A stretch of DNA of 44,516 bases, taken from NCBI GenBank assembly GCA_944322885.1, contig CALUQH010000007.1:1-44516 (forward strand). Reading direction: 5' to 3'. The translations under genes were made by a program, and so were the position numbers. Positions 15,767-39,311 of the stretch are shown in pieces (the first letter of the stretch is position 1; every line of letters begins with the position of its first letter). The DNA comes from Candidatus Gastranaerophilales bacterium (lineage in GTDB: Bacteria; Cyanobacteriota; Vampirovibrionia; Gastranaerophilales; Gastranaerophilaceae). Below the pieces are notes generated by a model. It was not told the DNA's origin, made no database searches, and worked only from the letters and a program-made list of their open reading frames with translations.

Positions 15767-16572
15767 ATGTTGTATAGAGAAGCTTTTAGAATACCCCCCC
15801 CCCGAAAAATCTAAGCAGCAGTAAGGGGTTTACCTTAGCTGAAGTTTTAATTACCCTTGGAATTATAGGTGTAGTAGCTGCTTTAACTATTCCGTCATTG
15901 ACAGTCTTTTACAGACATAAAGTTCTAGAAACTCAATTCAAAAAAAATTACTCTGTCTTAAGCCAGATAGCAGCTATTATTAAATATGAATATAATGAGT
16001 GCACATTTGAACAAACAGAAGAAATAAAAAAGACTATTATCGAACAACTTAATGCTGCCGCCAAAATAAAATATGAAGGGAAAAATTCTAATAACACAAT
16101 CCCGCCGAAAGATTATAAACAATATACATTTACAGGTTCGGAAGCAAATGACAATTTGCATATGAATTGTCTAATAGGAAACAAAAACTATGTTGCAAAA
16201 TGGGGGCCTAATTATCAAGCTACTCTTAATGACGGAAGTTTTATAGGCATTTGCTCACACCCGTCTTCAGATGCAGGAACGCTAATAACAATTGATGTAA
16301 ATGGGATGAAAAGTCCAAACAGATTTGGACATGATATATGGGGATTTCATCTGGCAAAAGATACATGCAAATTAGAACCAACTTTTACTTACCGAAACTT
16401 TAAAGAAGACGAAGCAGGATATGGATCAAACAGGGATAATGTCTCAGTTGAAAAACGATGTTCTTTAACTGACACCAGTGATTCTAACGGATTTTATTGT
16501 GCATATTATGCAATGAAAAATGAATGTCCCGATAATTCGGGGGAATCATACTGGAACTGTCTGCCCAGGTAA
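15767..16572 (+). CDS. Prepilin-like protein, off-frame at a C10 tract
   Basis: With the tract as given, translation from ATG 15767 ends after 15 codons. If the tract had 11 C (or 8) the frame would continue as about 268 (267) residues. It would read a short basic leader, then the class III prepilin signal SSKG-FTLAEVLITLGIIGVVAAL (cleavage after G, E at +5), then a secreted domain. That domain has IDVNG...PNRFGHDIW in the middle and a Cys-rich end, NECPDNSGESYWNCLPR. The pilin frame has a TAG at 15787-15789 and no usable start before the signal. Function: minor pilin or pseudopilin-like surface protein. A matching gene lies at 33531-34300. Confidence 0.85.
15794..15803 (+). repeat. Homopolymer C10 in prepilin-like gene
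   Basis: Ten consecutive C between codon 9 and the prepilin signal. In AT-rich DNA such a run is conspicuous. Length 8 or 11 would join start and pilin frames; 10 separates them. Runs of this kind change length by slipped-strand mispairing in phase-variable genes of other bacteria and can also cause transcriptional slippage. Confidence 0.9.
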
Positions 16573-33530: not shown

Positions 33531-34300
33531 TTACGGTAAACATTCCCAGTAAGTTTTTGAATTATCGTCAGGACAAATATTTTTTACTGCATAAGGTGTA
33601 CAGCCAAAACCATTAGAGAGTTTTGTGCTAGTTTTACTGCATTCTCCGGATGTTTCAAAATAAACATCATCATCAGGCGTAAAGGAATTTCCGTCATCGT
33701 CAGTCTTGTGTGCAAGCTCTCTGTCAACGGCCTCCAATCTAGGAGAAGCAGCAGATTTAATAACAAATATAAAAAGATCATGTCCGTATGCATTCGGACC
33801 TTTTTGGGGACCATTTGTATCTATCGTAAAATACCAGCCTCCTGAATTTTTCATCCCTCCAATCGCACTACCGTCTGCAAGTATATGCCCAATTCGAGTT
33901 TGCGATTGTGTTGGTGACGCCCCTTTTATAGATTTTTTAGTATAACCTTTAAGATCAATTTTTGTCGAATAATATTTATCCGATATAGTTTCAATAGTTT
34001 TTAATTTAGTATAAATACTGACATAAAACTCATTATTATTATAAGCGACAAAATCCGGTGCCATATTGGGCGCTCCAAGTTCAAAAATTGTCAAATTCAC
34101 AGCATTATAAAGATTTGCATAACTTTTTTTAAAAGCAGCTTCAAGAACTTTTTGTTGATGTTTTGAAATCAATGTCGGCATAGTCATTGCAGCAACTACA
34201 CCGATAATACCAAGAGTTATTAAAACCTCAGCCAGAGTAAATGCGTTTTGGAAGCCTAGAGCTGCCCCCCCCCCGATTTAATAAATCTTAATACTTCCAT
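33531..34300 (-). CDS. Prepilin-like protein, off-frame at a G10 tract
   Basis: From the ATG at 34300 (AGGAGA seven bases upstream) translation runs 14 codons through ten G and stops at TAG (34258-34256). With 11 G (or 8) it would continue for about 256 (255) residues. These are a leader, then the prepilin signal FQNA-FTLAEVLITLGIIGVVAAM, a secreted domain with FTIDTNG...PNAYGHDLF, and an end ICPDDNSKTYWECLP. The end closely parallels the gene at 15767-16572. A TAA in the pilin frame just before the tract removes other starts. Cleavage after Ala rather than Gly would be atypical. Confidence 0.85.
34265..34274 (-). repeat. Homopolymer G10 in prepilin-like gene
   Basis: Ten C on the plus strand, thus ten G in the coding strand, starting at the last base of codon 9. 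The pilin frame needs one more or two fewer, the same offset as in the C10 gene at 15794-15803. Confidence 0.9.
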
Positions 34301-34328
34301 ATTACTTCTCCTCTCATTTTTGTTATTT

Positions 34329-34357
34329 ATTATAACAAAAAATACCGGGCTTTTCAA
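34329..34357 (-). promoter_or_regulatory. Prepilin gene promoter embedded in the rpsA terminator
   Basis: On the minus strand TTGAAA (34352-34357) lies in the loop region of the rpsA terminator. TATAAT (34329-34334) follows after exactly 17 bases, the spacer being the terminator's 3' arm and T-run. A start near 34322 gives a leader of about 22 bases including AGGAG. Confidence 0.65.
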
Positions 34358-34368
34358 GCCCGGTATTT
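34335..34368 (-). terminator. rpsA terminator
   Basis: AAATACCGGGCTT pairs perfectly with AAGCCCGGTATTT around a three-base loop. A T-run follows on the minus strand, twelve bases after the rpsA stop. Confidence 0.9.
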
Positions 34369-36438: not shown

Positions 36439-39240
36439 TCAAGAAAGGATATTTCCATAACGGTCTTTAGGATACATATCATATTTAGGATTTTGAGAGT
36501 TTAATCGTCCTAAAGTTTCGGGAGAAGATGTATAAGATACATTTTCTTTTGCCATTCTCGACGACAAATTCTGAGTATTTTCAAACTCATCTTTGTTAAT
36601 CTCTTTCAATAATTCGCTGAAAGATATATCAGAAGCGGCTTTTCTTTCTGCAGTCTGTTTAACAATTCCTCTTGCAGAATCAATGTTATTATAAATAAAC
36701 TTAGCTGTATCTGCGCTGCTTTCAACAATACTCTGGAATAAAGCGCTGTTACTGTTCATTATTAACTGATAAATTGTTTTTTTCTGGTTGCTGTCAGAAA
36801 TAGAAGCCAAGAGTTTAATTTGTTTAGCTGGAGATAAGTTTTTGAAATAAATTGCCTGATATTCGATTTTTTCACGGTGTGATAATGATGCGTATTCCTG
36901 CGGAGTCAGCTGTGCTCCTGAATACACCTTATCCAGAATTGCACTTTTTATAGTTCCGGGCAGCTCAGTTTCATTTTGAATATAACCGCGTGTTTCAGAA
37001 GTTGTATTAGAACCTAAACTGCTCCAAGCCGATTCAATTGCTTCCTGATTACCTGTAGCATAGACAGAATCCATTGCTTCAGATTGAACACCCGGATCAT
37101 AATTTCCGATATTGCCTGCAGCGTGTTCCTGAACTTCGGAGTATTGTGAGCCCATCATACGATTGTGCATATCAAGCTGATTTTCTTTAGCACAATCAGG
37201 AATTTGATCAGATAAATTGTTTAAATATTTTACAGCTTCATCACCTTCAAAATATTCATTTAATCTGTTATATAATAAATCAAAACCTTCAGTTTGATTT
37301 TCAGTAGCCATTTTAGAAACAGAACCGTTTTCGGAAGCATGCGCTGCAGCATCCTTATCTCCGGTAATTGCTGCTTCATAAGTTGCAAGCTGATTTTTTG
37401 TATGAAACTCACCGATATGATCAGTTGTATAATTTCTTACAGTAGTGTTGAAAACAGAACTTTTTTCTAAATTAGCCTGAGCCTGACGTTCTTTCTCTAC
37501 ATCATCAATTGATATGTTCAAATCTACTGCTTTACAGGCTAATGTATCATTTTCGTCCTGAGAGTATACACCCAACTCTGCCATATCAATCATATTTGTA
37601 GAAACAACAGATTTCTGATCATCATTTCCATCTGCTACTATTTTATCAGCTCTATAAATAGCTCCATCCATAGCTATGGACTTCATATAGGAATTACCAG
37701 AAGATGCAGCTCCTGCCAAAGCTTTAGACTGCATATTTAATGCTTCAACACTTGTATTTCCATCTGTTGCTGCAATACTTTCAGAAATGGTATTTGTATC
37801 TCCATACAAACTCGGAATTTTGTCACCAAAATGTTTTATAATTGAAACAGATGTAGTATCATTGTTAAATTTAAGAAAAGTCTGAATATACTTTTCTTTT
37901 TCTGCCTGACTCATACTGGAAGTTTTGTTTTCAATGTATTTATTAGTAAATGCATTTATTAATCTGCTGTCATTTGTATAGGCTGTTAACTTGCTTTTTA
38001 ATTCGTCTATTTCAGCTGCAATACCTTTTTCATATTCAGTTTCAGGCTGAGGTAAATTAGGGATAACTTCTTCCCTTAAATATTTTGCTTCATCTGAACC
38101 TAAATATTGAGAAAGGGTATTATATTTGCCCTGGTCATCCACATCAAGTACTTGGCCTGATGCCATTTTTTCATTTAATTCGTCAAATTCTTTTTGTAGT
38201 TCTATTAAATTAGCAGCTTTTGATTTTTCTATAATATGTTTACCATTACCGGTACCAAATTTGCTTAATTCTTTAAACCACTGTTCTTCTTCCTTAGACA
38301 GGCCGGATTGTTCTTTTTTAGTCTTTAATTTTCGCAAAGCTTCTTCTGTAGGATCAAGGTTACACAGGCGGGCATATTCTGCTACCTCTGACATAGAAGG
38401 TTCTTCACGTAAACCCACACCGCGATTCTCTAGAGATTTAAGCATCTCTGATTTAACAAAATTATTTATATTTAAATAATTTTCATCGCTTGCATTTAAA
38501 GTATCTTTATTTTTATTCAAATATTTTTCCGTGGCATCTATTTTGTCATATTCGTCTAAACCCATAAATTCTAAAAATGATAAATTTTGAGAATTTGCGA
38601 CCTGAACAGTACGCATAGTTGAATCTATTAAACCAATTTGCGCACTTTCAGACATACCTTGGACAAAATTTTTGATAGATTTTCCTATTTCTTGTAAATT
38701 AGCATCATTCTTCATACCATCCATCAAATGAGTGATAAACTGTTGTTTCTGAGCTTCTGACATGTTATCCCATTCTTCCACAGAATGAGGAGTCAAACCT
38801 GCAACTGTATTTCCGTCTTTGTCTTTGATGCCATAAATAAATATATTTTTTGCAAATTCATATTTTAAACTATCAAACTTTTCGTCTTTACTCTTTGAAT
38901 TGTATGCAGCTCTATCAAATTCTGAAGAAGCAACCTGTGCGTCTTCTTTGACAGATATTTCAGTCGGAGCAGAGATTTGTTTTTCTCTATATTGTTCGAC
39001 AATTTCTAATTGTTTTGCTTCATCTAAAGTCGGAAAGTCACGATTATTCTTAACAATTGCAGCATATTCATCAGAAGTTAGATTTAAACGTTTTAATAAT
39101 TCCTGCTTTTTAGCATCTACCAAGTCAATTGGAGCATTAGATCCACTGCCGGATACTGATGACGAACCAACCAATTGTCCGGCAGAGCCTACAGCTCCTG
39201 TATTAATATTATAATTTGGATTATTAAATTCAACTGACAT
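36439..39240 (-). CDS. Large unknown protein, 933 residues
   Basis: Not recognised. I start at the ATG at 39240 (MSVEFNNPNYNINTG); the 22-residue extension upstream lies in leader sequence. The N-terminal 55 residues are Ser/Gly/Asn-rich and probably disordered. The remainder is acidic, almost wholly helical, with almost no cysteine, and has loosely repeated helical hairpins (for example VQEHAAGNIGNYDPGVQSEA). No signal peptide or membrane segment. It may be a structural or scaffolding protein peculiar to the lineage. A terminator-like hairpin separates it from the gene upstream on the same strand. Confidence 0.7.
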   Translation of the reverse strand: MSVEFNNPNYNINTGAVGSAGQLVGSSSVSGSGSNAPIDLVDAKKQELLKRLNLTSDEYAAIVKNNRDFPTLDEAKQLEIVEQYREKQISAPTEISVKEDAQVASSEFDRAAYNSKSKDEKFDSLKYEFAKNIFIYGIKDKDGNTVAGLTPHSVEEWDNMSEAQKQQFITHLMDGMKNDANLQEIGKSIKNFVQGMSESAQIGLIDSTMRTVQVANSQNLSFLEFMGLDEYDKIDATEKYLNKNKDTLNASDENYLNINNFVKSEMLKSLENRGVGLREEPSMSEVAEYARLCNLDPTEEALRKLKTKKEQSGLSKEEEQWFKELSKFGTGNGKHIIEKSKAANLIELQKEFDELNEKMASGQVLDVDDQGKYNTLSQYLGSDEAKYLREEVIPNLPQPETEYEKGIAAEIDELKSKLTAYTNDSRLINAFTNKYIENKTSSMSQAEKEKYIQTFLKFNNDTTSVSIIKHFGDKIPSLYGDTNTISESIAATDGNTSVEALNMQSKALAGAASSGNSYMKSIAMDGAIYRADKIVADGNDDQKSVVSTNMIDMAELGVYSQDENDTLACKAVDLNISIDDVEKERQAQANLEKSSVFNTTVRNYTTDHIGEFHTKNQLATYEAAITGDKDAAAHASENGSVSKMATENQTEGFDLLYNRLNEYFEGDEAVKYLNNLSDQIPDCAKENQLDMHNRMMGSQYSEVQEHAAGNIGNYDPGVQSEAMDSVYATGNQEAIESAWSSLGSNTTSETRGYIQNETELPGTIKSAILDKVYSGAQLTPQEYASLSHREKIEYQAIYFKNLSPAKQIKLLASISDSNQKKTIYQLIMNSNSALFQSIVESSADTAKFIYNNIDSARGIVKQTAERKAASDISFSELLKEINKDEFENTQNLSSRMAKENVSYTSSPETLGRLNSQNPKYDMYPKDRYGNILS

Positions 39241-39276
39241 GATTATATTTCTCTTAGTTTCTCTCTTACCAATATA

Positions 39277-39311
39277 AAAACATGCCAAAACCATGGATTT
39301 CAGCATGTTTT
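39277..39311 (-). terminator. Hairpin ending the 243-residue gene
   Basis: AAAACATGC pairs with GCATGTTTT around a loop of 17 bases, followed on the minus strand by a short T-run. It overlaps the leader of the 933-residue gene. Confidence 0.55.

Follow-up and report, generated by a model that had tools for sequence, protein, structure and literature searches.

Prepilin-like genes set one base out of frame by G10 or C10 runs: a probable phase-variable repertoire in a Candidatus Gastranaerophilales bacterium

The window, a stretch of 44,516 nt from a Candidatus Gastranaerophilales bacterium, carries a type IV prepilin-like gene on its reverse strand at 33531–34300. A Shine-Dalgarno (SD) sequence, AGGAG (34308–34312), lies 7 nt 5′ of the ATG (34300–34298). 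This start codon opens a leader of eight codons and two bases, MEVLRFIK + TC (34275–34300), which runs into ten G (34265–34274). The G10 run occupies codons 9–12 and is a slippage-prone repeat near the 5′ end of the reading frame. With ten G, the ATG frame continues as CAG CTC TAG and stops at this TAG (34256–34258), 9 nt 3′ of the run. The prepilin frame instead reads (GGG)3 GCA GCT CTA GGC TTC CAA AAC GCA and then TTT ACT CTG GCT GAG GTT, which gives ALGFQNA/FTLAEV. A run of n = 8 or 11 G joins the two frames, whereas a run of ten does not. Since a TAA in the prepilin frame (34278–34280) lies three bases 5′ of the run, the prepilin frame cannot begin upstream at n = 10. No ATG, GTG or TTG was found in the prepilin frame between the run and the signal. 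The original prediction had described a ribosome binding site, an ATG, eight and a half codons, ten G and an off-frame prepilin signal, with a TAA of the pilin frame directly before the tract, and this arrangement was confirmed at 34312–34242 on the reverse strand.

The 23-nt linker (34242–34264), read as AALGFQNA, would form the end of a cleaved leader, with putative cleavage after the A preceding FTLAEV as judged from the motif. The mature prepilin body, FTLAEVLITLGIIG...YWECLP, comprises 236 aa and a stop codon (33531–34241). It had been described as intact, and its frame is indeed open from FTLAEV to the TAA at 33533–33531. The protein matches PF07963 (N_methyl) above the cut-off (E 1.2e-4) and has the G/A-F-T-L-x-E signal followed by a hydrophobic helix. 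An AlphaFold2 model of the mature pilin, built from two sequences only, had a mean pLDDT of 31 and was too poor for a fold search.

A good promoter had also been proposed. The predicted sigma-70-type promoter, TTGAAA-17-TATAAT (34329–34357, reverse strand), matches the consensus at 11 of 12 positions, has a TG 5′ of the -10 element and is strong by consensus. The gene is flanked by an S1-domain (rpsA-like) gene on one side and a sigma-70-family factor gene on the other. The terminator hairpin of the upstream S1-domain gene (34329–34368, reverse strand) contains the -35 element of the prepilin promoter, so that the end of one transcript and the start of the next overlap. Elsewhere in the window, a reading frame of 955 aa (36439–39306, reverse strand) had no Pfam match.

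A second prepilin gene lies on the forward strand of the window. Its start codon and leader, MLYREAFRI (15767–15793), are followed by a run of ten C on the coding strand (15794–15803) and by the mature part, FTLAEV...YWNCLPR (15829–16572). Its frames join at 8 or 11 and are off at 10. The C-termini of the two genes are alike (YWNCLPR and YWECLP), as had been noticed before. The original prediction gave this gene the same design as the first. The opposite strand and the off-frame run held up, but its coding strand has ten C rather than ten G. A second gene of this design does exist, but the two do not form a pair; both are members of a set of 61.

Counting both strands, the genome (G000; 1.86 Mb, 97.7% complete) contains 70 runs of G≥8, of which 58 have a length of exactly ten. 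Runs of G≥9 number 66, against about 0.5 expected from base composition, and in the window 6 G8 words were found, against a mean of 0.26 in shuffles. The runs were examined in stretches of about 3 kb, and start codons were picked by SD strength and ATG. Sixty-one of the 70 runs pair one-to-one with 61 of the 91 prepilin (PF07963, N_methyl) matches in the genome and lie 10–366 nt 5′ of the signal. On the coding strand, 36 of these genes have a G run and 25 a C run. In nearly all of the 61, an SD-ATG lies 20–38 nt 5′ of the run (∼9 codons). For the other 30 prepilin genes, the 1 kb upstream contains no run. When 12 of their upstream regions were read, 11 had an ATG a few codons 5′ of the signal and one was a linker-like exception. 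The N-terminal domain of a prepilin peptidase (PF06750) is also present in the genome (E 1.6e-36).

Both orientations have common flanks. Across all runs of this genome, the pattern is TTC-G10-C(A/G)NT(C/T)(C/T), followed by a weaker TAAGC. The flanks are conserved in one DNA orientation, whichever direction the gene takes, which suggests a DNA-level element or an exchange of cassettes. We also searched for a phage or mobile-element origin, and the run with its flanks had no exact match among viral contigs.

Where translation starts can be read from the linkers between run and signal. In the prepilin frame they are free of stops in 59/61 genes of G000 and in 68/70 genes of the nearest relative (G023). 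Among linkers of at least 150 nt, 57/59 are open in the prepilin frame and 0/59 in each of the other frames. Because the linkers are open just in the prepilin frame, translation appears to enter them from beyond the run. A start downstream of the run was ruled out for at least 35/61 genes, whose linkers have no in-frame ATG, GTG or TTG. Judged from the reading frames, the SD-ATG 5′ of the run is the only start that would account for the open linkers.

The linkers differ widely in content. Those of G023 reach 694 nt and consist largely of dispersed repeats of that species, and they are still open. At loci L202–L287 of that genome, repeats in the leader linkers, such as TGAAACGAACTTATTC in 30 genes, are read through without stops. 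The long cleaved leaders seem to be landing sites for repeats in G023. About ten linkers of G000 (e.g. L023, L027, L059 and L080) have a recurrent TATAATAGTGAT...CATCAT between run and signal, read as NSD..HH. This stretch resembles a former promoter and operator that has come to be translated as part of the leader.

The frame offset is nearly constant. As assembled, 54/61 prepilin genes of G000 are off. The frames join only at n = 8 or 11 in 53/61 genes of G000, 65/70 of G023 and 22/24 sampled genes of G026, and the assembled length is 10 in 52/61, 59/70 and 22/24, respectively. Depending on the gene, the distance from ATG to run is 0, 1 or 2 modulo 3, and the length of the linker compensates. 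When linkers were shuffled among genes, the permutation maxima were 38 and 44, against the observed 53/61 and 65/70, and 0/20,000 permutations reached the observed values; start and linker modules are common to genes of one species, so the genes are not all independent evidence. Lengths of 8, 9, 11, 12 and 16 are also present among the loci of G000 and G023, several with joined frames. For runs in the G orientation at n = 10, the ATG frame reaches its stop a median of 8 nt past the run, compared with 35 nt at n = 9.

We compared these genes with relatives, using one assembly per species throughout. In a related genome, the orthologue of the window gene (L031) encodes a protein 91% identical, has the same S1-domain and sigma-70-family neighbours and keeps a G10 run that is off by one. 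Absence of the tract from close relatives had been named as evidence against the original prediction, and this closest orthologue retains it. The window gene has a dN/dS of 0.09 relative to its G023 orthologue, and both copies are off as assembled. Such purifying selection indicates that the gene is no pseudogene. Over 20 orthologue pairs, dN/dS ranged from 0.09 to 0.33. Since these prepilins are under selection though off as assembled, the genes must be expressed at times.

Among 28 reciprocal best pairs of G000 and G023 (34–94% identity), the start distance and the linker usually differ; the linker of the window gene has 23 nt in G000 and 352 nt in its G023 counterpart. Run length and offset are mostly kept in these pairs despite the replaced start regions. 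In the best match from G020 (78% identical), C9 stands in place of the G run, and 8 or 11 is again needed. The expectation that expression depends on the length of the G run between start and signal is thus strongly supported by comparison, that is by the 61 genes, the open linkers, the conserved proteins and the run lengths of relatives.

The 33 genomes of the genus have 0–176 runs each (median 63), and most have dozens. The number of runs correlates with the number of prepilins across these genomes (rho 0.75). In genomes from the order's other families, the number of runs does not exceed 6. One of these (G038) has 89 prepilin matches and no run of G≥9, a prepilin expansion without runs. Within the genus, G030 has 100 prepilin genes and 9 runs of G≥9. 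Several of the latter are found at the ends of contigs, and runs may therefore be points where the assembly breaks. G022 has 134 prepilin genes and 4 runs of G≥9. Of its prepilin genes, 30 were read, and most have an SD-ATG a few codons 5′ of the signal, a plain short leader. G022 is therefore a tract-free relative with its start directly 5′ of the signal. As this genome lacks runs almost altogether, we take this as loss or absence there, not as a flaw in the reading of the run as a switch.

A sister genus (G033) has the same design with lengths of 9–14 and a mixture of on and off states. Its near-identical start modules are on at 9 and off at 10, or on at 11 and off at 12. Such differences in length and state between like modules, here seen between assembled sequences, are the usual mark of slipped-strand phase variation.

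Six further genes of G000, which are not prepilins, also have a run in the coding sequence. They encode two family 2 glycosyltransferases, an FrhB/polysaccharide pyruvyl transferase fusion, a starch-synthase-like protein, a DUF2963 protein and a radical SAM protein (L001, L032, L040, L043, L058 and L084, on contigs C1, C8, C12, C13, C19 and C35). All six are in frame as assembled, five at length 10 and one at 8, compared with 7/61 prepilins (Fisher p = 1.7e-5). Because non-prepilin genes are in frame at ten, this is a genuine length, and it is specifically the prepilins that are set to be off at it. The six are likely switches with a default of on.

From the arrangement of these reading frames, the ∼60 type IV prepilin-like genes are probably a default-off repertoire that varies by slipped-strand phase variation, with the switch placed in the cleaved leader. 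Translation would begin at the SD-ATG 5′ of the run, cross the run and have to reach the prepilin frame to make the FTLAEV signal. At n = 10 the ribosome would meet a stop within a few codons, and the gene would be off. Replication slippage to 11 (or 8) would join the frames, and the prepilin would be made. The prepilin of the on state would then be cut by the prepilin peptidase just 5′ of F+1 and exported. With run and linker in the cleaved leader, neither the length of the run nor the content of the linker would affect the mature pilin. Off would be the default state of each gene and on the state in a minority of cells, so that the population as a whole would display a combinatorial mixture of pilins. 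The off/on phenotype, the cleavage, the role at the surface and slippage in living populations are inferred.

A one-sided offset would be expected if both of the commonest lengths (10, then 9) gave the off state and the on state were confined to the rare lengths 11 and 8. In Bifidobacterium breve, base addition in a G10 pilus run amounted to 0.1%, against 6.5% G9 (PMC9187656); a default-off offset is plausible in this light. Two observations do not fit simple forms of switching. With length 10 in 52/61 and 59/70 genes, the lengths peak more sharply than free switching would lead one to expect, and a shared off-by-one direction in about 90% of genes is not what plain random slippage predicts. 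A MutS domain was found in this genome and in almost every searched genome of the genus. Mismatch repair may thus dampen slippage, and its loss was rejected as the cause of the runs.

The constant offset fits phase variation and programmed recoding alike, and sequence alone cannot separate them. Under programmed recoding, G10 or C10 would be a slippery site whose length is kept at exactly ten, the off-by-one gene would constantly yield a small share of prepilin by -1 ribosomal frameshifting or by base addition by RNA polymerase, and changes of DNA length would be incidental. We consider this doubtful. It would explain why about 85% of prepilin runs have length 10, why the offset is one base short of 11 in 53/61, 65/70 and 22/24 genes while few need 9 or 12, though lengths 9 and 11 occur about equally often, and why orthologues with replaced start regions hold length and offset. 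The ATG-frame stop close behind the run at n = 10 (G orientation) also agrees with it. However, the offset is the same for G and C runs, which are not equivalent to the ribosome or to RNA polymerase. Among the six non-prepilin genes with coding runs, five are in frame at length 10, and G033 has lengths of 9–14 in mixed phases. A preference for the rarest phase (11 or 8, not 9) would also be expected if each prepilin were only rarely on. A wider form of this idea is similarly unlikely. It would make G10/C10 a family-wide recoding signal by which selection keeps dozens of prepilins one base out, frameshifting in either orientation sets a low expression, and DNA slippage adds a second heritable layer; cassettes of start, run and linker would be exchanged with length and offset kept.

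It is very improbable that the genes are decaying or silenced, with runs that inactivate prepilins on the way out or mark a silent store for recombination. The 54/61 genes off as assembled and the exchange of start regions and linkers between genes and species would agree with this, but the dN/dS of 0.09–0.33, the long intact frames, the hundreds of linker bases in which the prepilin frame alone has stayed without stops and the recurrence of runs in most genomes of the genus argue against it. An assembly artefact, in which true runs of 11 (on) were assembled one base short, is hardly credible and was rejected: a uniform error of one base would yield a uniform offset, but in the same assembly the non-prepilin genes are in frame at the same run length, runs of 8, 9, 11, 12 and 16 were assembled too, and several species agree. 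Insertion of a fixed-length element is conceivable as the source of the constant prepilin offset but is opposed by the in-frame non-prepilin run genes.

The reading as a phase-variable repertoire has several known counterparts. The sortase-pilus switch of B. breve (bbr_0113, bbr_1889) works by replication slippage; a run of G10–G11 near the start of the pilin precursor splits the gene into two frames, the gene is mostly off in culture, and the on length is enriched in mice (PMC9187656). As in the prepilins described here, a G run lies near the start of a pilin gene and a change of length joins the frames. However, B. breve has two sortase-type pilus clusters with Sec signals, two loci and one orientation, whereas here there are type IV prepilins, ∼60 loci and both orientations.

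In Neisseria, the contingency loci pilC, opa and pgl have homopolymers or short repeats in the frames of pilus and surface genes, with 9–20 G in pilC and about 15–19 poly-G runs per genome (PMC5953494). These are mostly single genes of different families with widely varying lengths, and no single prepilin family there has a run in most members. Campylobacter has G/C homopolymers in coding regions, settled at 9–10 by opposing insertion and deletion biases, and C. jejuni, also a gut organism, has 18–39 such loci (PMC8355987). Many coding G/C-run loci in a gut organism are a feature common to both. In contrast, the Campylobacter loci concern LOS, capsule and flagella, not prepilins, and a constant one-base offset is not described in the parts of PMC8355987 consulted.

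Programmed frameshift genes (dnaX, IS elements) combine a homopolymeric slippery site and a fixed offset with a stop close by in the starting frame (PMC5009743, PMC3711429). The prepilins resemble them in a conserved slippery site and a fixed direction of shift, with a run of 10 and an offset to 11 in most genes. Known bacterial frameshift sites are mostly A/T-rich, and a family-wide G10/C10 in either orientation is not described in the literature consulted.

Homopolymer phase variation, and a G-run switch in a pilus gene of a gut bacterium (B. breve), are thus already known. Our search of open-access papers on phase variation or prepilins in Gastranaerophilales returned nothing on a run-switched prepilin system. 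What appears to be new is the run in most members of a prepilin family, with dozens per genome, in both orientations and one base short, which was not found in the open-access literature searched.

Standard annotation would truncate the run-bearing prepilins or place their starts wrongly. The placement of the switch has its own logic, as a switch located in a removed peptide would be free to vary without harm to the pilin. If the phase-variable reading is true, bacteria that are common in the gut but uncultured possess a stock of switchable surface proteins among the largest known, and their switches look like one of the most extensive collections within a single gene family. The present genome has about 60 run-bearing prepilins, and a congener with a genome of about 2 Mb has as many as 176 runs of G≥9, compared with 15–19 poly-G runs per pathogenic Neisseria genome. 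With ∼60 genes, each rarely on, different cells would show different subsets of pilins.
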